Source: Candidatus Melainabacteria bacterium (GTDB taxonomy: Bacteria; Cyanobacteriota; Vampirovibrionia; Obscuribacterales; Obscuribacteraceae). Taken from it: a stretch of DNA of 51,156 bases. The notes beneath the pieces were generated by a model. It saw only the letters and a list, made by a program, of their open reading frames with translations, was not told the DNA's origin and made no database searches. The position numbers and the translations under genes are program-made. Numbering within the stretch: position 1 is the stretch's first letter; every line of letters starts with the position of its first letter. Below, piece by piece: positions 25,074 to 46,212 of the stretch. The stretch covers positions 1 through 51,156 of the forward strand of contig DTSE01000453.1 in the NCBI GenBank assembly GCA_012965515.1, in the 5' to 3' direction.

Positions 25074-25511
25074 TCATCTGACGATAAGGACAGAGCAGCG
25101 AGCGTTCCTCACGATTTTTTCTGCGTTCGTTCCAAGAAGCGCGCCCCAAATGCTTGAATGTCCGGTGTCGCCTATAACCAACATGTCCATGCTGTTCTTT
25201 TTCACGAATTCCACCATTGCTGCAGTTGAAGAACCGGTCGTGATCTCAGTAAAAGTATTGACCCCGGCGCCTTCAGCAAGTTCTCTTGCTTTTATCTGTG
25301 CACGCTCAAGCTTTTCTCTGGAAGTTTTGTCGGCCGCCAGAACCTCACTTGCGCTGTAGGAGGCATCAACCGACTCCTGAATAGACACTATATGCAGTTC
25401 CGCTTCTTTGGACTTTGCTTGATTGACTGCTTCTTCCAGTGCCTTCCAGGAACTATCCGAACCATCCAGCCCAACTGCTATTTTGTAGTTTTTACTTTTG
25501 TCTTCTGTCAC
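25074..25511 (-). CDS. Universal stress protein, UspA family (ATP-binding type)
   Basis: 145 aa from GTG 25511. The N-terminus (YKIAVGLDGSDSSWKALEEAV) and the C-terminal G-2x-G-9x-G-(S/T) nucleotide motif (GDTGHSSIWGALLGT) are intact, so ATP binding is expected. The gene starts 3 nt after the stop of the SulP transporter gene on the same strand, so they form a coupled unit. Universal stress proteins next to transporters often tune them; that link is inference. Confidence 0.92.
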   Translation of the reverse strand: MTEDKSKNYKIAVGLDGSDSSWKALEEAVNQAKSKEAELHIVSIQESVDASYSASEVLAADKTSREKLERAQIKARELAEGAGVNTFTEITTGSSTAAMVEFVKKNSMDMLVIGDTGHSSIWGALLGTNAEKIVRNARCSVLIVR

Positions 25512-25514
25512 GAT

Positions 25515-27158
25515 TTACTTTACATCCGATTCTTCTTGCGCAGATCTTTCAGTTTCCCACAAATTTATTGCATCGAGCGCTTTTTCGAAACGCTCAAAGC
25601 AATATTCCATATCAATGTTTGCCCCCATTTTGTTCAGAGCTTCCCTAATGTGCGGACTAATTCCAACAAAAAGCACTTTTATTCCTTTGGCTTGCCATTT
25701 TTCAATTGCCGTCTCCAGTGCAAAAGCTCCGGTTTGATCTACGAGAGGAACGTTCAAAAAGCTCAAGATTACATATCTGGCACCGCTAATTTTTTCTATG
25801 GCATCAGTGAAGTTTTTTGCTTCCCCGAAAAACAAAGGGCCGTTCAGGACATACGAATAGGTACTTCTGCGCACGCTTTCAGGAATATGCTCCGTCACCT
25901 CTTTCAACTCTTCGAGCGTTTCGAGATCACCAAAGGATGAAACATTGGCATCAGCCAACTGTTTGACGAAAAGTACGGACGCGACTGCAACACCGACCAG
26001 AACTGCAACAATCAAATCGACAAAAATCGTCAAAGAAAGAACGATAAACATTACGGCAACATCTGCTCTCGGTGTCTTATTCAAGCTGCGCAAAACACGC
26101 CAGTCCATGATACTGAGCCCAACTGTCGTAAGAATTGAAGCGAGCGCACAAAGGGGTATTTCAGCAGCTATTCTGCTGAAACAGATGAGTACGAGCAGTA
26201 AGAAAAATCCATGCAAAATACCTGAAAGCGCAGTTGTGCCGCCCGACTTCACGTTTACCATCGAGCGCATGGTTGCTCCGGCGCCTGGCAATCCGCCAAT
26301 AACGCCGGACATGATGTTACCTATACCCTGCCCTATCAGTTCGCGATCGCTGTCGTGCCGTCTGCCTGTAACTTTGTCCAAAACAATAGACGTCAAAAGA
26401 GAGTCTATAGCTCCCAAAAATGCCAAAGTAAGCCCGTTTTGCAGCACAAGGTGAAAGTCAGCAAAGGTTACATTCGGCAATTTCGGTTGTGGAAAACCAC
26501 CAGGAATACTTCCGATTTTAGGGATTTCGAGCTGAAACACATGCGTCACTAATGTCACTGCAACTAGAGCTACAAGTGATGCCGGAATTTTTTTGGAGAC
26601 AAAAGGAAGCAGGTAAATGAGTGCAAGGGTTGCGGCGCTTATCAGAACAGCATCTCGATTCCATGCCGTGGGTAGAGAAGTTAACGATGTTAGTGCATTG
26701 ACTACACTTCCGGATGTAGGCATGCCGAAAAGAGGCGCAATCTCCACACAAATGATGATGGCGCCAATTCCTGTCATGAAGCCGGAGATGACCGGATACG
26801 GTATGTATCCAATCAGTTGACCCGCTTTGACATAACCCATAGCCATTTGTATAAGTCCGCCCACGATTGCAGATGCAAAGACGAGGTCTGCTCTGCCCGA
26901 TGCAGTGGCAAAAACCGCAGCGGCTACAACTGTCATCGGACCGGTAGGGCCAGAGCACTGTCCGGCGGTGCCACCGAACAGCGCAGCAAAAATCCCGCAA
27001 GCGATTGCCCCATACAAACCAGCAACAGCACCTAGACCGGAGGCAACACCGAAAGCCAGGCAAAGAGGCAAAGCAACGATTGCCGCCATCAATCCGCCCG
27101 TCAGATCGCCTAGCGGATTTGTGCGTACAGTTTCTTTTATTGAGTTAAAAACAGTCAT
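25515..27158 (-). CDS. SulP-family anion transporter with STAS domain (copy 1)
   Basis: 547 aa. The N-terminal membrane domain carries the SulP signatures GGLMAAIVALPLCLAFGVASG and GGTAGQCSGPTGPMTVV, and GQGIGNIMSGVIGGLPGAGA mid-domain. About ten to twelve hydrophobic segments follow to residue 420. The C-terminal STAS domain (about 430-530) begins YVLNGPLFFGEAKNF. SulP proteins move sulfate, bicarbonate or other anions; BicA of cyanobacteria belongs here, but the substrate cannot be read from sequence. Coupled to the downstream universal stress gene and divergent from a KaiB-like gene 205 nt away. A second copy lies at 40267. Confidence 0.92.
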   Translation of the reverse strand: MTVFNSIKETVRTNPLGDLTGGLMAAIVALPLCLAFGVASGLGAVAGLYGAIACGIFAALFGGTAGQCSGPTGPMTVVAAAVFATASGRADLVFASAIVGGLIQMAMGYVKAGQLIGYIPYPVISGFMTGIGAIIICVEIAPLFGMPTSGSVVNALTSLTSLPTAWNRDAVLISAATLALIYLLPFVSKKIPASLVALVAVTLVTHVFQLEIPKIGSIPGGFPQPKLPNVTFADFHLVLQNGLTLAFLGAIDSLLTSIVLDKVTGRRHDSDRELIGQGIGNIMSGVIGGLPGAGATMRSMVNVKSGGTTALSGILHGFFLLLVLICFSRIAAEIPLCALASILTTVGLSIMDWRVLRSLNKTPRADVAVMFIVLSLTIFVDLIVAVLVGVAVASVLFVKQLADANVSSFGDLETLEELKEVTEHIPESVRRSTYSYVLNGPLFFGEAKNFTDAIEKISGARYVILSFLNVPLVDQTGAFALETAIEKWQAKGIKVLFVGISPHIREALNKMGANIDMEYCFERFEKALDAINLWETERSAQEESDVK

Positions 27159-32094: not shown

Positions 32095-33648
32095 CTAAGG
32101 ATTCTGCAATTTGTCATCCAGCTCACGAATGTGTTGGTCGATCTCCAGCTTTAGTTTCTCAAGGCTGTCCTGAGCAAGAAGCCCTTCTCTAGATAACATG
32201 ATCAAATAGTCTTTCTTGACTTCAAGAAGTGAGCGTTTTACTTCGGAAAATTCGAGCTCTTGTATCGACGAATCAGCAACGTGCAGATCTTCTATTGAAT
32301 TTCTTGTCTCTTGCTGAGACTGACTCAACTCTTCTTTCAGTCTGTTATAGCCATGGTCTGTAATTGAACCCTGTTTTTTTAAACCTTCAAGAAAGTCCAG
32401 CGCCTTAGTGTTAGACATCTGAACGCTTTTCAATTCTTTGTACGCTGTCATCTTCGGGTCACCCGGATTCATTTTGAAGAGCTTCACCAAGGGCTCGATT
32501 GTCAGTCCAGGCAATAACAACGTGAATAGAACGACACCAAATGTGGTGATAAGAATTTCTTCTCGGTGCGCTATAGAACTAGGTAAGCTCAGCGCTAGAG
32601 CCATTGATAGAGAACCCCTCAACGCTCCCCAGAAAAGTAGATTTCGCCAACTCCACGGAATGGGAGCTGATTTTCTAGCGAAAAATGGCGTCAATCCATA
32701 GACTACAATTGCCCTTGATACAAGCACTGACGCAATTGCCAGACCTATAGGCAAGGCGTATTTCTGAAGCAGGTCGAATTTTACTTGCAACCCGATGAGC
32801 AAGAACACAAGCGAATTAACAAGGAAAGCCGCGTACTCCCAGAAGGAATTCACAGCCAGCCTTGTCGTGGCAGACATTGCAGCTCTACTTCCGTAATTAC
32901 CCATGACGATGCCCGCAGCCACCACACTTATAACAGGCGACACTCGCAGCTGCTCGGCGATTAGAAAAGCACCGTACGCCAATATGGTCGTCAGTGTAAT
33001 TTCAAGCAAATGGTCGTCAAAAAAAGCTGTAATTCTGGAAGCTGTATAGCCCAGTGCGCAGCCAACAAATGTGCCGCCGAGAACTACAAGAAGAAAGTTG
33101 CCTGCGCTCTCGGTAAATGAGAACTGGGCATCCGCTATCAAAAGGGCAAGAACAATCTTGAACAGTACTACGGCCGTACCATCATTGAAAAGACTCTCCC
33201 CTTCCAAAATCATGGTCAACCGTTTATTCATGCCCAGCTTGCGAAACAAGGCAAGGACAGAAATGGGATCGGTTGCCGAAATCATGGCGCCGAAAAGGAA
33301 GGCGACTTTCAAGGGCATGCCTATTGCAAAATGCATGATAAAAGCAACAACAGCCATGGAGATAACCACTCCAGGCACGGCAAGAACTAGGATAGGTAGC
33401 CAACTTCTTTTCAGTTCTTTCAGATCAATATTCCAGGAAGCTTCAAACAAAAGAGCCGGCAGGAAAACCAGCAGGATGAGCTCAGGAGTCATCTCAACTA
33501 TTGGCAGCAGATGAAACACACCGATGAAAAGACCGACGATGACAAGACTTATTGAATAAGGCAACCTGATCCACTTCACAACCATCGCCACCGCTGCTGT
33601 GACCATTAGCAGGACGACGAAAAGATCGATGTGAAACGTATCGTGCAT
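32095..33648 (-). CDS. CPA1-type Na+/H+ antiporter (tandem copy 1)
   Basis: 517 aa. Twelve or so helices with CPA1 signatures ISATDPISVLALF and ILEGESLFNDGTAVVLF, which hold the ion-site Asp and Asn-Asp residues, plus LFWGALRGSLSMALALSLP in the second half. Residues 390-517 are a charged coiled-coil cytoplasmic tail. The ATG is preceded by AGGC. The protein should exchange Na+ or K+ for H+ at the inner membrane for pH and salt balance. It lies 63 nt after a close paralogue on the same strand, indicating tandem duplication and probable co-transcription. Confidence 0.93.
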   Translation of the reverse strand: MHDTFHIDLFVVLLMVTAAVAMVVKWIRLPYSISLVIVGLFIGVFHLLPIVEMTPELILLVFLPALLFEASWNIDLKELKRSWLPILVLAVPGVVISMAVVAFIMHFAIGMPLKVAFLFGAMISATDPISVLALFRKLGMNKRLTMILEGESLFNDGTAVVLFKIVLALLIADAQFSFTESAGNFLLVVLGGTFVGCALGYTASRITAFFDDHLLEITLTTILAYGAFLIAEQLRVSPVISVVAAGIVMGNYGSRAAMSATTRLAVNSFWEYAAFLVNSLVFLLIGLQVKFDLLQKYALPIGLAIASVLVSRAIVVYGLTPFFARKSAPIPWSWRNLLFWGALRGSLSMALALSLPSSIAHREEILITTFGVVLFTLLLPGLTIEPLVKLFKMNPGDPKMTAYKELKSVQMSNTKALDFLEGLKKQGSITDHGYNRLKEELSQSQQETRNSIEDLHVADSSIQELEFSEVKRSLLEVKKDYLIMLSREGLLAQDSLEKLKLEIDQHIRELDDKLQNP

Positions 33649-33711
33649 GGGTGCCTGAAGAGTTGCCGGCTAGAAACTGCCGCAGTTTCTATTATCTTTC
33701 ATTTCGTGGCA

Positions 33712-35286
33712 TTATTCGTCTTTTGCCAGTAGCTCCTTTTCATGTTGTTTCGCGCGCAATTGCAGAAAACGCGAATCAATGCGTTCTCTAAACTCGCCTA
33801 AAACCTCTGGTTTGGAATTCGTTTTTTTCGACAGGGCAATCAAGCAGTCCTTTTGGGCTCTAAGAAGAGCTGTTTCGATTTGAAGACGTTCGGTTTCATC
33901 ACTGTCACCCACGCTTGAATCAAGGATCTCGATCAATTGCTCAGTTTCGGAAATTCTTTGATCGATTTCCTCTTCTTTCCTCCGATATTCCTTTTTTCCC
34001 TGACCTGCTGCTCTTGCTGCCTTTGCCAGATTGCGTTTTTCATCTTTAAGTTTCGTCAATTCGATTTGCAATTCTGTATTTTTAGAAACTCGAGAGGAAG
34101 CGACCTTGAGAACTTTAACGAGCGGCTCCATCGTCAAACCAGGAACTAGCAAAGTAAATAGAGCAACTCCGAAAGTTGTCACTACGAGCATCTCTCTGTG
34201 AGGAAAAGTCGCCGGAAGACTCAATGCCATGGCCATGCACAAAGAGCCTCTCAGTCCGCCCCAAAAGAGCAAATGCTGCCAGCTGAGAGGAATTGGGTGT
34301 TTCTTCTCTCTGGCGATGAAAATTAGAAGATAAACCACCAACACCCGTGCAATAAGAGTGGCAACTATGCCTGCTCCTATAACTGGCGCATACTTAACCA
34401 AAAGTGGAAACTTGATTTGCATGCCGATCAGTAGAAAGACAAGTGACTCTGCAATGAAAGCTGCGTACTCCCAAAAGGAATCCACAGAAAGCCTGGTTGT
34501 TGCAGACATGCTTTTGCGGCTGCCGAAATTTCCCATAATACAGCCCGCTACAAGAACAGAGATTACGGAAGAAACGTGCAGCTGTTCTCCAAGAAGATAC
34601 GAGCCATATGCGACGAGAACTGTAAGTGTTGTTTCAAGCAAATGGTCATCAAAATACTGCGTGAGTTTCGAAGCGACAAGGCCAACGATGGCGCCTACGA
34701 TTGTGCCACCGCAGGTGAGTATTACAAAATCAAGTCCGATCTTCGACCAAGACAAATCGCCGCCCAGCAAGACTGCCGCCAACAATACTCTAAAGAGCGC
34801 GACTGCTGTTCCGTCGTTTAAGAGGCTTTCACCCTCTAAGATCGTATGCAGCCTTCGGTTGACCTTAAGCCTTTTGAAAAGTGCCAATACCGAAATTGGA
34901 TCGGTCGCAGAAATCATAGAACCGAAAAGAAGCGCTATCTTGAAGTCCAGACCTGTCAGCGCGCTGACAATGAACGCCACACAGACTGCTGATACAAAAA
35001 CGCCGACGGTGGCGAGCAATGCAACCGGCCGAAGGCAAGTCTTCAACCAGTCAATATGAAGATTCCAGGACGCTTCAAATAGCAATGCAGGAAGAAAAAT
35101 GAGCAAAATTAGCTCTGGCGTCATTGTTACTACTGGCAAGAAATGGAAGATGCCAATAAGTAGGCCCACTATGACGAGCGCAATTGAGTATGGAAGCCGG
35201 ATCCATTTTGTGACGATAGCTACGCCCGATGCCAGCAGAAGCATCGTAAAAAGCAAATAGAAATTGAGATTAGAACTTACTTCCAA
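33712..35286 (-). CDS. CPA1-type Na+/H+ antiporter (tandem copy 2)
   Basis: 524 aa from TTG 35286. Same plan as its neighbour: MISATDPISVLALFKRL, ILEGESLLNDGTAVALF, LFWGGLRGSLCMAMALSLP, then a coiled-coil tail (about 395-524, ELTKLKDEKRNLAKAAR). The two proteins share most of their membrane domain motifs but differ in the tails. Likely first gene of a two-gene antiporter operon; tail differences suggest separate regulation of activity. The start codon is not supported by a clear ribosome-binding site. Confidence 0.92.
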   Translation of the reverse strand: MEVSSNLNFYLLFTMLLLASGVAIVTKWIRLPYSIALVIVGLLIGIFHFLPVVTMTPELILLIFLPALLFEASWNLHIDWLKTCLRPVALLATVGVFVSAVCVAFIVSALTGLDFKIALLFGSMISATDPISVLALFKRLKVNRRLHTILEGESLLNDGTAVALFRVLLAAVLLGGDLSWSKIGLDFVILTCGGTIVGAIVGLVASKLTQYFDDHLLETTLTVLVAYGSYLLGEQLHVSSVISVLVAGCIMGNFGSRKSMSATTRLSVDSFWEYAAFIAESLVFLLIGMQIKFPLLVKYAPVIGAGIVATLIARVLVVYLLIFIAREKKHPIPLSWQHLLFWGGLRGSLCMAMALSLPATFPHREMLVVTTFGVALFTLLVPGLTMEPLVKVLKVASSRVSKNTELQIELTKLKDEKRNLAKAARAAGQGKKEYRRKEEEIDQRISETEQLIEILDSSVGDSDETERLQIETALLRAQKDCLIALSKKTNSKPEVLGEFRERIDSRFLQLRAKQHEKELLAKDE

Positions 35287-35397: not shown

Positions 35398-36405
35398 TTA
35401 GCGAGCAAGGAAAAGAATGACATTGGCAATTATGTACACGACTGCAATTGCCATCGCATCTCCGGCCAGAAATAGAAACTTTTTCTTCGAGCGATACACA
35501 AGTCCGATAACGACGATAGAAAGAGCAATCATCGCGCAAATCGCAGTTGATGAATTGACTTGCGACACTGACCTAAGCAGTGGTGCTTTCACATAGCAAA
35601 TGTCGGTTACGGCAAGAATTGCCACATTGAAAAGATTGCTGCCAAGCAAGTTGGCTACCGCCATATCGAAAGCGCCCATTCTCGCTGCTGTAACAGAAAC
35701 AGTTATCTCGGGAAGCGACGTCGTTATAGCTATAAATGAAGAACCAATAAAGCTCTCTGCCCATCCGGTTTGCTTGGCGATTTGCTCGCCTAGCTCCGGC
35801 AAAAAGCAGGCAGCGACAACGATTATCACCGAATTGAGAATGAACATCGTCATCGCTTTTTTGAGATTTGCCGTTGCTCTGTCATCTGACTCTCCCAACT
35901 CGCCTGCAAATTCATTGAGCCGAGCTTTTTCATAGTCGTAGATTAGTCGCATGGAAAGGAGATAGATAGCAAGGAGAAGAAGGCTTATGGGGTCGATTGC
36001 ATTAAGGCTGGTCAAAACAGGAAAGTACTTGCCAAAACCGATATCTATTGCCGCCAGGCCTAGAAGAACAATTCCAAAGCCGCACGAAAGCATGTGTCCG
36101 TCGTGTACTAAATCTGAAACTGGTCTGTGTTTTGAGAGAAAATCCAAAAGAGCAATCACCATCATGTTGAACATGCAGCTGCCGATTGTTCCACTCACCG
36201 CCATGTCGGGAAGATCGTTCAACGTTACAGCACTTACGCTAGTTATGAGTTCCGGAAGTGAAGTAACAGTCGCAAGCAAAACCAGCCCAACCCAGCTTTT
36301 GCCAAGTCCTGTCTTCTCGGCTATTACATCACCGTAGATGCTCAAGCGGCTGCCAGAGTAGAGGATTACCCCGGCACATACGAAAAACTCAATCCAAACT
36401 AGCAT
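35398..36405 (-). CDS. CaCA-family cation exchanger (Na+/Ca2+-type)
   Basis: 335 aa with ten predicted helices in two halves. The alpha-repeats are clear: alpha-1 VLLATVTSLPELITSVSAV...SGTIGSCMFNMMVIALLD and alpha-2 IAITTSLPEITVSVTAARMG...ANLLGSNLFNVAILAVTD, each with the conserved Ser-Leu-Pro-Glu. A central acidic loop (YDYEKARLNEFAGELGESDD) separates them. The protein should exchange Ca2+ or another cation for Na+, K+ or H+ at the inner membrane. It follows the two-component genes on the same strand by 200 nt; co-regulation is possible but not shown. Confidence 0.9.
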   Translation of the reverse strand: MLVWIEFFVCAGVILYSGSRLSIYGDVIAEKTGLGKSWVGLVLLATVTSLPELITSVSAVTLNDLPDMAVSGTIGSCMFNMMVIALLDFLSKHRPVSDLVHDGHMLSCGFGIVLLGLAAIDIGFGKYFPVLTSLNAIDPISLLLLAIYLLSMRLIYDYEKARLNEFAGELGESDDRATANLKKAMTMFILNSVIIVVAACFLPELGEQIAKQTGWAESFIGSSFIAITTSLPEITVSVTAARMGAFDMAVANLLGSNLFNVAILAVTDICYVKAPLLRSVSQVNSSTAICAMIALSIVVIGLVYRSKKKFLFLAGDAMAIAVVYIIANVILFLAR

Positions 36406-39707: not shown

Positions 39708-40262
39708 TTACCGAAAACTCAGTGGAAGTAGCAAACCGGTTTCGATATCGTAGAAAGAAACCCAGTCTATTTCGGGCTCAAACACCCAGCCTTGAAATTT
39801 AACTTTGCGCTTCATAAGCGCTACGTCTCTTCTCAGTTGCTTTTGGATATCCCTCAATTCGATCTTTATCGTCTTCTGCAGCAACATAATCTCACCTTCA
39901 TTGACCGATCTGGAATCAGCGCCTAAGGCAAGCGCAGAGTCATCAATGCGAAAAATTTCCCGGTCCAAAACCTGCTTCATCAAAGAACAACCTGTATGCA
40001 AACAAACTACTATGTTTGCCACACCGCTGCCACTACTTAGTAGATCCGGAAGGAAATCGGCAGCATTACTCCTTTGATTATGTGAAACTCTAGCTAAAAG
40101 GCCAGCTGGTACCGCAAGGTGAGCCAGAGGCATTAGCTTCTCCACGGTTTTTGAAGTTGGACTCGAGTTAGGTTCAGAGCACGAAATCAAAATGGTATGA
40201 ATCTCACTTATTTTGAATCCGGCAGGCTCAACCGAAAGAGAGTAAGAAAAATCAGTCTTCAT
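39708..40262 (-). CDS. Divergent beta-carbonic-anhydrase-like protein
   Basis: 184 aa. Zinc-ligand geometry of beta-carbonic anhydrases is visible: Cys28 in TILISCSEPNS, then His89 and Cys92 in VVCLHTGCSLM, with 61 residues between Cys28 and His89 and the usual H-x-x-C. The stretch between (LAHLAVPAGLLARV...NAADFLPDLL) mimics the RNAG and saSieYA blocks. The catalytic Asp-Arg dyad of CxDSR is replaced by Glu30 and Asn32, so hydration activity is doubtful or altered. The ATG lies 4 nt after the SulP stop with AGGGTGA upstream, so it is coupled to SulP, as real carbonic anhydrases often are. Assignment is by motif spacing; a homology search is needed. Confidence 0.55.
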   Translation of the reverse strand: MKTDFSYSLSVEPAGFKISEIHTILISCSEPNSSPTSKTVEKLMPLAHLAVPAGLLARVSHNQRSNAADFLPDLLSSGSGVANIVVCLHTGCSLMKQVLDREIFRIDDSALALGADSRSVNEGEIMLLQKTIKIELRDIQKQLRRDVALMKRKVKFQGWVFEPEIDWVSFYDIETGLLLPLSFR

Positions 40263-40266
40263 TCAA

Positions 40267-41892
40267 TCACCCTGCTACATTCGAAAAACGAGTTTCGGAG
40301 TTTGCTTTTGGGAGTATGTTAATCAAGTCATCCAAGCTCTCTACCATAAATGCTTCGTCTAAAACTGATTCACAAGCCATTCCTTGCAGTGTTTTTTCGA
40401 TCTCACCGTGCAGTCCTAAAAGTATCACCACGTTGCCGCACTTTCTCAAGTGTGCGATTGCGTCTTCCAAGTAGTAACAGCAGCTCACATCAATGGAAGA
40501 AGCACAGACAAAGTCAAATATCAATGTCTGCTCTTTATCGAGAGCACGTATTATCTCTGTGAGATTTTTTGTTTCACCAAAGAAGATCGGACCACTAAAA
40601 GCATATACCAGCGCTTTCTTCATGGAGCTTTCTGCAGAGCCGGGAGTTGGTTCCAGATATTCATATATCGTGTCGAGAGTCTTGCCTCTCGCGAGTTTCG
40701 AATCAGAAACTCTTTTAGCAAAAAATACACAGGCTAGAGCAGTGCCAATTAGCACTGCGGATATCAAATCAAATGCGACAGTCAAAATTAACACCGTTAG
40801 CATCACACATGTATCTGCCTTCGGTGCTGCTCTCATGTCCTTAAAAGCACGCCAATCGATTATTCCGAAGCCCAGCGAAATGAGAATACCCGCTAGCGCC
40901 GACAACGGAATAACCGCAGCTATATTGCCAAAAAACGCGATAACAGAAAAGATGAGTGTTCCATAAATCACACCGGCAAGAGCACCTCTACCGCCAGCAT
41001 CTATGTTAGCTATTGTTCTTGTGGTCGAACCGGCGCCAGGCAACCCGCCTATTAGACCTGCAGCCATGTTACCGATTCCTTGGCCTATGAGTTCTTTGTT
41101 GCTATTGTGGTGCTCACGCAACATCTTATCAGCGATCAAAGACGTGAGCAGAGAGTCAATCGAGCCCAATACCGAGATCGTCAACGCTCCTGCCAGAACG
41201 ATGTAGAGATCAGAAACACCAATTGCAGGCAACTGCGGCAGGGGTAGTTGATTTGGAATCTCTCCGATTCTCGGTATATCTAGTTTTAGAATGACAGTGA
41301 CTGCACTGGTAGCAGCAAGCGCCAATAAAGCAGCAGGAGCGTGCTTTGACACTTGTTTTATACAAACTGAAATAAGAATGGTTGATAGTCCGATGAGCAG
41401 CGCCGCCAAATTCATGCTTGTTGGGATAGCAGGAATTTGCTTCAAACTCAAAATAATGTCTTTGTTGCCAGCAATCCCAAATAACGGATTGATATGAAGG
41501 AAAATGATAATGAGAGCGATGCCAGTCATAAACCCTGAGACCACAGGGTATGGAAAGTACCGAACGAGTTCACCAAATCTTAGTTTGCCGAAAACTACCT
41601 GCAGCAGCCCTGCGATTATAGTTGCGGCAAACACCAATTCACGGCGATCGTGGTGAGCGACAAGCATCGCAGCTACTACTACTGCAATAGGGCCTGTGGG
41701 CCCGGATTGCTGGCCTCTCGTACCTCCAAAGATGCCAGCGAGAAGGCCGCAGGACATGGCCCCGTATAGACCAGCGGCCGCGCCCAATCCCGAGGCGACC
41801 CCAAATGCCATTGCTACAGGGAGAGCTACAACCGTGGTCATAATACCGCCGGTGATATCACCTTTCCAGTTACAAAAGAAGGACTTGTACAT
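40267..41892 (-). CDS. SulP-family anion transporter with STAS domain (copy 2)
   Basis: 541 aa from ATG 41892, preferred because AAAGAG lies about 7 nt upstream; ATG 41934 in frame adds 14 residues. SulP signatures GDITGGIMTTVVALPVAMAFGVASG, GGTRGQQSGPTGPIAVVVAA and GQGIGNMAAGLIGGLPGAGS are intact. The C-terminal STAS domain (about 420-530) begins YAFSGPIFFGETKNL. It is a close paralogue of the SulP at 25515, and both sit beside universal stress genes. Here the downstream gene is carbonic-anhydrase-like, which favours bicarbonate as a candidate substrate (inference). Confidence 0.92.
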   Translation of the reverse strand: MYKSFFCNWKGDITGGIMTTVVALPVAMAFGVASGLGAAAGLYGAMSCGLLAGIFGGTRGQQSGPTGPIAVVVAAMLVAHHDRRELVFAATIIAGLLQVVFGKLRFGELVRYFPYPVVSGFMTGIALIIIFLHINPLFGIAGNKDIILSLKQIPAIPTSMNLAALLIGLSTILISVCIKQVSKHAPAALLALAATSAVTVILKLDIPRIGEIPNQLPLPQLPAIGVSDLYIVLAGALTISVLGSIDSLLTSLIADKMLREHHNSNKELIGQGIGNMAAGLIGGLPGAGSTTRTIANIDAGGRGALAGVIYGTLIFSVIAFFGNIAAVIPLSALAGILISLGFGIIDWRAFKDMRAAPKADTCVMLTVLILTVAFDLISAVLIGTALACVFFAKRVSDSKLARGKTLDTIYEYLEPTPGSAESSMKKALVYAFSGPIFFGETKNLTEIIRALDKEQTLIFDFVCASSIDVSCCYYLEDAIAHLRKCGNVVILLGLHGEIEKTLQGMACESVLDEAFMVESLDDLINILPKANSETRFSNVAG

Positions 41893-41949
41893 CAGAATCT
41901 CTTTGCAAAAAAAATCAAGCCTGTATCCCTGCATCAGTGCCAGAACTTT

Positions 41950-42516
41950 TCAGGTTACTGAAATTGGATTGCTGAGCCAATTTGTATCCTGTCCGGGTTT
42001 GATTATCTGCACTGGGCATCTTGCCTTGCTCAATACGCGATTTGTAACACTAGGGACAAACCAGTGTCTCTGCCTTTCTGGATGGATTACCAGCAATATT
42101 AAGTCAGGGAGAATCTGATCGGAGGCACTTAGAATTGCATCCGCTACTGATTCGCTAACTACAACTCGAGTAAAAATGCCTGCATCGAGAAAGACCTCCT
42201 CCAATGAGTTAGCAAGCCTTTTCAAATACTGCTTCGCTTCGTGTTTTGCATCTTTCTGCTCGTCTGCCAAGCGAGATATCTCCAGAGCCAACATCAGTCT
42301 AGCTCCTGCCAGTTTGTCCTCAACCGAGTGAAATAGATGAATGGATGCGATGTGCGAGTCTGTATTCTTGCCCAGAATGTCGCACGCGAGCTGCCCATGC
42401 TCGTAATCCCTGATCGGCAGAAGAATAGTCGCGCCTTTTCGCACGTGCAAAGTTGCACTACTTTCCGAATGGATCGATCCCGTTCGATCGCCTCTGCGAT
42501 TCAGATATCTAGCCAT
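41950..42516 (-). CDS. Universal stress protein-like, ATP motif lost
   Basis: 188 aa. Start fixed at ATG 42516 by a perfect AAGGAGGT five bases upstream; the longer frame to 42549 lacks one. The UspA fold is recognisable (ATILLPIRDYEHGQLACDIL, IASIHLFHSVEDKL, LPDLILLVIHPERQRHWFVPSVTNRVLSKARCPVQIIKP). The nucleotide motif G-2x-G-9x-G-S is absent: the site reads HPERQRHWFVPSVTN. It is thus probably of the non-ATP-binding class. First gene of the unit with SulP and the carbonic-anhydrase-like protein, 57 nt before SulP. Confidence 0.85.
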   Translation of the reverse strand: MARYLNRRGDRTGSIHSESSATLHVRKGATILLPIRDYEHGQLACDILGKNTDSHIASIHLFHSVEDKLAGARLMLALEISRLADEQKDAKHEAKQYLKRLANSLEEVFLDAGIFTRVVVSESVADAILSASDQILPDLILLVIHPERQRHWFVPSVTNRVLSKARCPVQIIKPGQDTNWLSNPISVT

Positions 42517-42689
42517 GTGCGACCTCCTTCGCAGAGGTGCAAGATGCACCTTCGCGTAGTACTCACATCCCTCTGCTCACCAGGACGAGTCGTCGCAGCA
42601 CAAGGAGCTTCACAAGAAAGCTGATGCACTAATACGATTCACACAGGTGATCGCGCAAACCAAAGCTTGCATTGCTGTCGTCAATCTGT

Positions 42690-42711
42690 CATATCGCAAT
42701 ATTGCAATATG
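42690..42711. promoter_or_regulatory. 22-bp near-perfect palindrome, candidate ArsR-family operator
   Basis: CATATCGCAAT followed by ATTGCAATATG: the halves are reverse complements except for one mismatched pair. It lies 174 nt upstream of the Usp start and 54 nt past the ArsR-type gene. AT-rich palindromes of this length fit ArsR/SmtB operators, but the bound protein is inferred from position. Confidence 0.55.
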
Positions 42712-42764
42712 AACGATAATTGCACCCTATCAACTCAACTCTGGCGTGTCAAGTACCAAAACCA

Positions 42765-43151
42765 CTAACTACGATTTCGCTTCGAAGTCTTCTTTGATGA
42801 CGAATTTTGAGACCACTTGCTGCGCGCTGAATCCAAAGCAGTAAGAATGCGACGCGATTCCTTATCATCAGGAATCACAAAAGTTATGCATTGTACAACG
42901 AGATCCGCCAACTCCTTTTGTCTCAAGTGATAGTAAACATTCCTGCCAACACGTCTTTCTTGCACAATTCGATTAGCTCGTAGAATAGCCAAATGTTGCG
43001 ATACAGAACCTTGAGGAACGATCAAGGCATCTTTCAGGTCCGTCACAGTTCTCTCACCGTCACGCAGTTCCTGAACGATAAGAATTCTCAGTGGATGCGC
43101 TAACACACCGAAAAACCGTGAGAGCTCTTCTGAAACAACTTTTCGATCCAT
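42765..43151 (-). CDS. ArsR/SmtB-family transcriptional regulator
   Basis: 128 aa from ATG 43151; a TTG at 43187 would add 12 residues. The winged-helix core is clear: SRFFGVLAHPLRILIVQELRDGERTVTDLKDAL, recognition helix QGSVSQHLAILRANRIV, wing QERRVGRNVYYHLRQKEL. A basic tail (SSKKTSKRNRS) follows. The metal-binding ELCVCDL motif of SmtB is not present and only one Cys remains (VVQCITF), so metal sensing is unlikely by the classical site. It is upstream of, and on the same strand as, the Usp-SulP-carbonic-anhydrase-like unit. Confidence 0.9.
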   Translation of the reverse strand: MDRKVVSEELSRFFGVLAHPLRILIVQELRDGERTVTDLKDALIVPQGSVSQHLAILRANRIVQERRVGRNVYYHLRQKELADLVVQCITFVIPDDKESRRILTALDSARSKWSQNSSSKKTSKRNRS

Positions 43152-43210
43152 TTCCAGATCTCTCAACAGGCTACGACATACGAGCAAATCCTAACATGTA
43201 TTCATTTAGG

Positions 43211-43554: not shown

Positions 43555-43674
43555 GTAGGGGCGCATTGCATACACCCTCCAAAATTGGGCGCATGCAATG
43601 CGCCCTTACGCAAACCGGGCGATGCATGGCATCGCCCCTGCGCAAACCGGACGATGCGTGGCATCGCCCCTGCG
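43555..43674. repeat. Palindromic repeat cluster (REP/MITE-like) at the 3' end of glgP
   Basis: Arms of 17 bp (GTAGGGGCGCATTGCAT and its complement, one mismatch) form a hairpin at 43555-43609. Two 32-bp direct repeats follow at 43611-43642 and 43643-43674, each starting CAAACCGG and containing arms GATGC/GCATC flanked by GGGC/GCCC. The cluster ends 3 nt before the glgP stop codon. The unit with GGGCGATGC arms around ATG recurs exactly at 47459-47479. Such elements can act as terminators or mRNA 3' stabilisers. Confidence 0.7.
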
Positions 43675-43677
43675 CTT

Positions 43678-46212
43678 CTAGATCAAGCAAGTCTTGCCTT
43701 GTGGAACCTTCAGTCCGGCTTCGTGTTGGCAATATTCTTTCAGTTCGACCTTAACCGGTTTTACTTTCCAAATCTCCTCGCAATATTCGCGAATCGAGCG
43801 ATCAGATGAGAACTTGCCCATGCGCGCTACGTTGTAGATAGACTTGCGAGTCCACTCGTCGTGCCGCTTGAACGCCGCACCGACCTTCATTTGGCACTCT
43901 ACATATGACGCGAAATCTGCCAGCACCATAAAGGGATCGTCTGCCAACAAATTGTTGATAAGCGGGCGGAACAGGTCCGGATCGCCATGCGAGAAGTGAC
44001 CAGAGCTAAGAATATCGATTACATTCTTCAATTGCTGATTCTTCTCATAGTAGTGATACGGGTTGTATCCCTTCGCTTTCAGCGCCGCAGCCTCTTCTGC
44101 GTTCATTCCAAACAGGAAGAAGTTTTCCGGTCCTGCTTCTTCGCGTATCTCGATATTGGCGCCGTCTAGAGTACCTATCGTCACCGCTCCATTTAGTGCG
44201 AACTTCATGTTACCTGTCCCTGAAGCTTCTTTTCCGGCAAGAGAAACTTGCTCACTCAAATCGGCAGCAGGATAAACACGCTGTCCAAGGCTGACACAGA
44301 AATCAGGCAAGAACGCCACCTTAATGATCTTGCTTATCTTCGGATCGTTATTGACCACTTCTGCGATCGAATTGATCAACTTGATGATGAGCTTCGCCAT
44401 GTAATATCCAGGCGCAGCCTTGCCACCGAAGATAAATGTTCGTGGTTGAACATCCAAGTTCGGATTCTCTTTAAGCAGATTGTAGAGCGCCACTATATGC
44501 AGTGCGCTCAAATGTTGCCTCTTATACTCGTGAATACGTTTCACTTGAATGTCGAACATCGATTCTGGGTCGACACTCAAGTCCAGACGATTCTGAATCC
44601 AGTTAGCCAAAACGACTTTGTTGTGCGCCTTTACGTCACTCCATTCTTTGCGGAAGCTGGCATCCTCGACATACTTCTCCAGCCCCTTGAGCTGATCAAG
44701 TTCTTTGATCCAACCGTCACCAATCTTACTTGTGATCAACTTGGTCATTTTGGGATTGGAAAGAACCATCCAGCGGCGCGGGGTCACCCCGTTAGTCTTG
44801 TTGTTGAACTTTTCTGGCGAGATCTGGTAGAAGTCGTGCAGGGTGTGTTTCTGCAAAAGTTCTGTGTGCAGTGCAGCAACACCATTAATTGAATGGCTGC
44901 CGACCGATGCAAGATTTGCCATGCGCACAAAGCGCTCGCCTGTTTCATCAATGATCGAAAGTCTTTGAATTAGACCATCATCACCGGGATACTTCTCGGC
45001 AATATCGTCGAGAAAACGACGATTGATCTCGAAGATGATCTCCATGTGCCTCGGCAACAGATCAGACAACAACTTGATCGGCCACCGTTCCAGGGCCTCG
45101 GGCAAAAGAGTGTGATTGGTGTAGCCGAGAGTCTTAGTGGTGATGTCCCAAGCCGTATCCCATTCAACATCATGATCGTCTACAAGAATTCGCATCAGTT
45201 CCGGAACGGCAATCGAAGGATGCGTATCATTCATCTGCGCGGCGAACTTCTCATGGAAATTCAAAATGTCTTCATTCTCACGCAAGTGAAGTTTGACCAT
45301 GTCGGCTAAAGAGCAGGCAACGAAAAAGTATTGCTGCTCAAGACGCAACTGCTTTCCTTGTTGTGAATTGTCGTTGGGGTAGAGAATCTTGGAGATTGTT
45401 TCGGAAGCGATTTTCTCGGCAACAGCTCCTGCGTAGTCACCGCGGTTGAAAGCCTGCAAATTAAGCGACTCAGGTGATTCGGCTCTCCACAAACGAAGAT
45501 TGTTGGCGGTATTGTTTTTGTAGCCTGGTATCGGTGTGTCATATGGAACACCATTGACCGTGCGATCCGGCACCCATTCAACTCGGTAGCGACCTTTATC
45601 GTCTTTGTATTTGCGGGTATATCCACCGAATTTGACTTCCACCGCAGACAAAGGACGCGCAATCTCCCACGGGTTGCCGTAGCGCAACCACTTATCTGTG
45701 ATTTCGACTTGCCAACCGTCGCGAATTTCTTGGTCGAAGATGCCGTACTCATAGCGAATGCCGTAACCAATGGTGGGAATTTCCAGAGTCGCTAGAGAAT
45801 CCAAATAGCAAGCAGCCAGACGACCCAAACCGCCGTTGCCCAAACCAGGCTCCTCTTCCTGCAAAATCAACTCATTAACGTCCAGCCCAGACTCGGCAAG
45901 CGCCTTCTCCATCTGCTCTTCGACGCCCATATTCACCATTGCATTGGCCAGGTGAGGCCCCATAAGAAATTCTGCTGAAAGGTAGCAGACAACGCGGACG
46001 TCTTTTCTGATGTAAGTCTCTAGAGTGTTGAGCCAACGCTGCAAGAGACGATCGCGCACTGTGTACGCGAGCATCATGTAAAGATCGCGCTTATTGGCAA
46101 TCTCAGGAAACTTTCCAACCGCGTAGTAGAGGTTGTCCTCAAGTGCGCGCCGCAAAGTGGGAATGCTCATCCCTGTGCGGTCGTCTTCAACCCTTACTGC
46201 CGTATTTTCCAT
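43678..46212 (-). CDS. glgP: Glycogen/starch phosphorylase
   Basis: 844 aa from ATG 46212, chosen because AAGGA lies 8 nt upstream; the TTG two codons earlier would sit too close to it. GT35 phosphorylase landmarks run throughout: [25 protein letters not shown]-like block ([19 protein letters not shown]), [44 protein letters not shown], and the PLP-lysine motif [15 protein letters not shown] (Lys near 670). It releases glucose-1-phosphate from glycogen or maltodextrin. Length is standard. Monocistronic here; no glycogen synthase or debranching gene in the window. Palindromic repeats sit at its 3' end. Confidence 0.96.
   Translation of the reverse strand: [844 protein letters not shown]

Follow-up and report, generated by a model that had tools for sequence, protein, structure and literature searches.

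A candidate inorganic-carbon uptake operon under a dedicated ArsR-type regulator in an Obscuribacteraceae genome

In a lineage without RuBisCO, a short operon of a Candidatus Melainabacteria bacterium is likely to serve the uptake of inorganic carbon and to be controlled by an ArsR-type repressor of its own. The window, which is the whole 51 kb stretch of DNA that was analysed, carries on its minus strand, in the order of transcription, the regulator gene, a palindrome, and the genes for a Usp-domain protein, a SulP transporter and a relative of the β-carbonic anhydrases (β-CAs), referred to here as CA-like:

42765..43151, minus strand: ArsR/SmtB-type winged-helix regulator, 128 aa, ATG start (Pfam HTH_5, E 2.3e-11)
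42747..42752, minus strand: putative -35 box TTGACA, which recurs at nearly the same spacing in relatives
42689..42712, no strand assigned: 24-bp palindrome TCATATCGCAATATTGCAATATGA, presumed ArsR operator, with 19-23 of 24 bases kept in 12 of 12 ArsR-bearing cassettes
41950..42516, minus strand: Usp-domain protein, 188 aa, strong ribosome-binding site (PF00582, E 5.7e-12)
40267..41892, minus strand: SulP/SLC26 transporter with STAS domain, BicA-like, 541 aa (Sulfate_transp, E 3.4e-78; STAS, E 5.1e-7)
39708..40262, minus strand: β-CA-derived (CA-like) protein, 184 aa (family profile against β-CAs)

In the proposed mechanism, an ArsR dimer would bind the palindrome, just downstream of the promoter and behind the arsR gene, and block transcription of the Usp, SulP and CA-like genes until a signal of inorganic-carbon or energy state frees it. 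SulP would import HCO3-, in this genome probably together with Na+, as in BicA. Because RuBisCO was not found, the imported HCO3- is expected to serve carboxylases and pH balance. Whatever part Usp may play, it gives no pointer for or against carbon uptake. The bicarbonate theme in a non-photosynthetic lineage, proposed in a preliminary description of this DNA, holds up: SulP has a CA-like partner, and the RuBisCO large subunit was not found in the genome itself (76% complete) or in 11 relatives, 12 genomes in all, by a search that did detect it in 5 of the 14 named controls.

Operon layout and putative operator

The gene order given in the preliminary description, with gaps of 57 nt between Usp and SulP and 4 nt between SulP and CA-like, is matched exactly by the coordinates. 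An ArsR-type regulator does precede these genes, with an alternative TTG start at 43187, but it falls outside the range of 39708-42711 that had been assigned to the unit, which covers Usp, SulP and CA-like. The strong ribosome-binding site attributed to Usp is seen as AAGGAGGT ahead of its ATG at 42516. The SulP start at ATG 41892 agrees with the starts of its homologs, and a longer alternative begins with the ATG at 41934.

The palindrome is present as described, but it is 24 bp long (42689-42712) and not 22 bp (42690-42711). Of its 12 pairs of positions, 11 match, and no other 24-bp palindrome of the window ranks as high. Shuffling the 248-nt gap 5000 times gave a palindrome of this quality in 6 cases, and the motif had no match in 100 shuffled windows. 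The best match to TCATATTGCAATATTGCAATATGA keeps 19-23 of the 24 bases at all 12 ArsR loci, including G028, where the site lies just beyond the 300-nt margin used in one of the scans. In G029, G072 and G073, the palindrome is located between a divergently oriented ArsR gene and Usp-SulP.

A TTGACA box lies 40 nt upstream of the palindrome in the window (measured between their first bases as transcribed) and 39-41 nt upstream at the 8 loci with the operon in the same orientation. The -10 element paired with it in the window is weak (about 42729..42724), and the pair was not listed by a simple sigma-70 scan of the window. Having a conserved palindrome next to promoter-like sequence agrees with the single ArsR-linked unit that had been suggested, and its conservation points strongly to a dedicated operator.

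With as many as 3 mismatches allowed, the genome itself shows no further site that would point to a wider regulon. Across 50 genomes of the family, 11 cassette sites pass at this threshold, along with about 10 further sites; none of the 9 examined is near cassette genes, and they were set aside as regulon members since they look like chance matches. Between ArsR and a phosphorylase gene (43560-43680), the window also contains inverted repeats rich in GC, such as GGGCGATGCCATGCATCGCCC, which may represent a small repeat family.

Conservation of the cassette and the ArsR subfamily

The CA-like protein, followed by a profile of its protein family, served as query against the 50 genomes of the same taxonomic family. 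The CA-like gene is present in 13 of them, with members scoring at least 79 bits and ordinary β-CAs at most 54.5 bits. A broken remnant was seen in G066 (contig C263, about 78057-78185), decayed to a readable end motif with stops ahead of it. In 12 of the 13 genomes, CA-like is accompanied by the ArsR ortholog, a Usp or Usp-like gene and a SulP gene, so that the synteny in relatives that had been proposed as a check is found; G008 has only a small gene and CA-like.

Gene order varies between cassettes, which comprise ArsR, SulP, a Usp or Usp-like gene, CA-like and, in many cases, a gene for a small protein. All 12 include the Usp or Usp-like gene, although the copies in G029, G072 and G073 are only weakly matched, and the G073 cassette is split across two contigs. 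True β-CA and/or bestrophin genes are present at the cassettes of G029, G072, G073 and G028. Bestrophin genes (PF25539) were located at L027:13729-14721, where the copy adjoins a true β-CA, and at L066:8785-9783. Among 386 genomes drawn from the phylum, CA-like is found in its own genome only, the sole other match (56 bits) being an ordinary β-CA. The small cassette protein (L023:10438-10911, with counterparts in 8 further cassettes), which is not present in the window, is hydrophobic at its start and similarly so at its end and belongs to no Pfam family, judging from the two members scanned.

ArsR belongs to the ArsR/SmtB winged-helix family by its score against NCBIfam HTH_metalloreg (80.6 bits, cut-off 55). 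It has 12 orthologs (at least 131 bits), which reside in exactly the cassette genomes and nowhere else among the 50, and which form a monophyletic group (support 100/97). A gap separates them from the next tier of paralogs (131.7 against 116 bits).

At 24 of 34 loci, these second-tier paralogs, with scores of about 87-116 bits, have as neighbours either true β-CA and bestrophin genes (sometimes with SulP) or DabA/DabB, as counted by tblastn within a reach of about 7 kb. Carbon genes were not seen within this reach at the other 10 loci, some of which are contig ends. At L096, the DAB genes are close by and a β-CA was found beyond about 7 kb. The 12 control ArsR loci, from two genomes, have one solid β-CA neighbour and two weak ones. 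DabA at the paralog loci is clear from its Pfam match (DabA, E 3.5e-268), and the β-CA loci have a separate palindrome of the form ATATATTCAAA-TTTGAATATAT. Of 10 ArsR relatives from other families of the phylum, 2, in two genomes, adjoin β-CA and SulP and 8 are not near carbon genes, so that the link between ArsR and carbon genes is real, but not universal.

The SulP transporter and the CA-like protein

The window SulP has both the Sulfate_transp and STAS domains that define the SulP/SLC26 family. Its best PDB match is BicA (6ki1, E 2.4e-80, 42% identity over the aligned part). The best NCBIfam model is also BicA (NF050096), but the score of 376.5 bits is well under the equivalog cut-off of 880, and that the protein thus equals no characterised transporter counts against the carbon-uptake reading. 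The residues of the Na+ and HCO3- site of BicA have been listed (PMC13249358), and 5 of 6 are retained in the window SulP: T69 for HCO3- and D258, T262, G300 and T302 for Na+, with A301 replaced by Ser (published numbering, as seen in the TM3, TM8 and TM10 stretches). The nearest named relatives are from Candidatus Obscuribacter and Obscuribacterales MAGs, which makes this non-photosynthetic cyanobacterial lineage the most likely origin of the window. A second SulP (547 aa, 42% identity to the first), followed by a Usp gene, lies at 25074-27158 of the window and retains all six BicA site residues.

The cassette SulPs of the relatives belong to two other clades, in which D258 is replaced by Q or E. 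Lacking this aspartate, they may carry another anion. Since the SulP clade is exchanged while ArsR, the palindrome and CA-like stay, the constant function of the cassette is not bound to a single SulP clade.

As a single sequence, CA-like falls under the Pfam and NCBIfam cut-offs (Pro_CA, E 0.11) and has no match in the PDB by phmmer. Likewise, AlphaFold gave no usable model from the single sequence of CA-like alone (pLDDT 33.5). The family profile, by comparison, has strong matches in the PDB exclusively to β-CAs (best 5swc, E 1e-6), and hhalign matches the family to the true β-CAs of the lineage (99.1%, E 1.1e-18). By these alignments, CA-like is a β-CA by descent. The zinc ligands C28, H89 and C92 (Cys, His-x2-Cys) are invariant in all 13 members, and the protein should bind zinc. 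The Arg of the catalytic Asp-Arg dyad (CxDxR), which the true β-CAs of the same lineage retain along with the Asp, is missing in all 13. At this place, the window protein reads C28-S-E30-P-N32, and the Asp position of the family alignment is occupied by Glu, Asp or Gln. Judging from these residues, CA-like is unlikely to function in the manner of an ordinary carbonic anhydrase.

It is more likely that CA-like senses HCO3-/CO2 or acts only jointly with the transporter. An alternative, compatible with carbon uptake and best regarded as a variant of it, is that the protein is an active enzyme, either an anhydrase with a changed dyad or a COS/CS2 hydrolase beside the transporter. The invariant zinc ligands, and the presence of Gln or an acidic residue where the Asp would be, are in keeping with catalysis, and dependence on a partner is known among β-CA relatives, since DabA2 hydrates CO2 only with a membrane potential (PMC13144422). 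However, alanine changes at the zinc ligands and dyad impair DabA2 in vivo (PMC13144422), and the loss of the dyad Arg in every CA-like member makes such an enzyme doubtful. CA-like may be either a pseudoenzyme sensor or an altered or partner-dependent enzyme.

Alternative functions and known systems

The preliminary description had also raised a response to sulfide or redox, and on this reading the operon would take up sulfate or sulfur oxyanions under a BigR/SqrR-like ArsR. Sulfate is indeed a frequent substrate of SulP proteins, and BigR is the best curated sub-model for ArsR after the general one (59.5 bits, cut-off 155). However, neither BigR nor CmtR reaches its cut-off, and no Cys is conserved among the 64 members of the ArsR subfamily, 33 of which are entirely Cys-free. 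The subfamily thus has neither the sensing Cys pair of the BigR/SqrR type nor the Cys metal ligands of alpha-3. This speaks against the sensing of sulfide or redox, and Cys-based metal sensing was set aside on the same ground. No Asp/His metal ligands of alpha-5 were noticed by eye in a 12-row alignment. No sulfur genes were seen in the cassettes, the partners of SulP and ArsR are carbonic anhydrase relatives, and the sulfur-linked ArsR of the lineage (L019, beside rhodanese-like genes) falls in the control group, all of which makes a sulfur function unlikely.

The operon might instead provide tolerance to ion or pH stress, with SulP balancing anions or bicarbonate alongside Usp and antiporter-like genes. 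Usp is part of the operon, and the window includes two antiporter-like genes (32095-35286) and a Na/Ca-exchanger-type gene (Na_Ca_ex, 35398-36405) near it, in addition to the second Usp-SulP pair. These neighbours all lie outside the conserved cassette, however, and the partners of the ArsR paralogs are CA, bestrophin and DAB genes. Stress tolerance in place of carbon supply is thus rather improbable.

Inorganic-carbon uptake, the preferred reading, has partial counterparts in several known systems. The window SulP shares its fold family and STAS domain with BicA, the cyanobacterial SulP/SLC26 Na+/HCO3- symporter, but differs in residue 301, and its gene is linked to ArsR and a CA-like gene in one operon, in a host without photosynthesis. 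SulP proteins linked or fused to β-CAs were reportedly described by Felce and Saier. The cassette resembles such pairs in that a β-CA family gene adjoins SulP, but here the partner is without the catalytic Arg, and ArsR, the conserved palindrome and Usp are added. CA-like has the zinc-binding Cys-His-Cys residues of CcaA-type β-CAs such as 5swc and also their HAW-Y motif at the end, but lacks their Asp-Arg dyad and has a conserved end of its own, EPExxWxSxxDxET. With its intact zinc ligands, its missing Arg and its place beside a bicarbonate-type transporter, this conserved protein could be tested directly as a bicarbonate sensor or as an anhydrase that a partner activates.

ArsR has the winged-helix core of ArsR/SmtB repressors and an AT-rich palindrome near the promoter, but its subfamily differs from them in the absence of conserved Cys and in its linkage to inorganic-carbon genes. 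The cyanobacterial regulators of inorganic carbon named in the literature covered, CmpR and NdhR, are LysR-type (PMC11456788). An ArsR family tied to SulP, β-CA/bestrophin and DAB would, if true, mean that the nearest non-photosynthetic relatives of cyanobacteria have solved this regulation differently. In the part of the literature that was covered, there was no ArsR-SulP-CA precedent and no description of an inorganic-carbon ArsR family; CupAR was considered as a precedent and rejected, as it is a small membrane protein. A broader and tentative proposal is that the Cys-poor ArsRs are a new class of inorganic-carbon regulators over SulP, β-CA/bestrophin and DAB systems in a sister lineage of cyanobacteria that has no RuBisCO. 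On this proposal, the CA-like proteins without the Arg would be zinc pseudoenzymes whose role is either to sense HCO3-/CO2 or to gate the transporter, much in the way SbtB gates SbtA. The findings also raise the question of why heterotrophs without RuBisCO retain several inorganic-carbon systems.

The DAB complex (DabA/DabB) occurs in the same lineage, beside paralogous ArsRs and another Arg-less CA-like gene, but its transporter type is unrelated to SulP and its genes are outside the window operon. In the genome itself (contig C88, L105:1229-7459), a DAB-type operon with a NuoL-like DabB and DabA is headed by this other β-CA relative, in which the catalytic Arg is also missing (ACSDMG) and GHSxC is retained. 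A divergent ArsR pair beside DabB/DabA recurs at L096, L099, L101, L111, L114, L122 and L129, and some of these loci also include HlyD-type and outer-membrane efflux genes.
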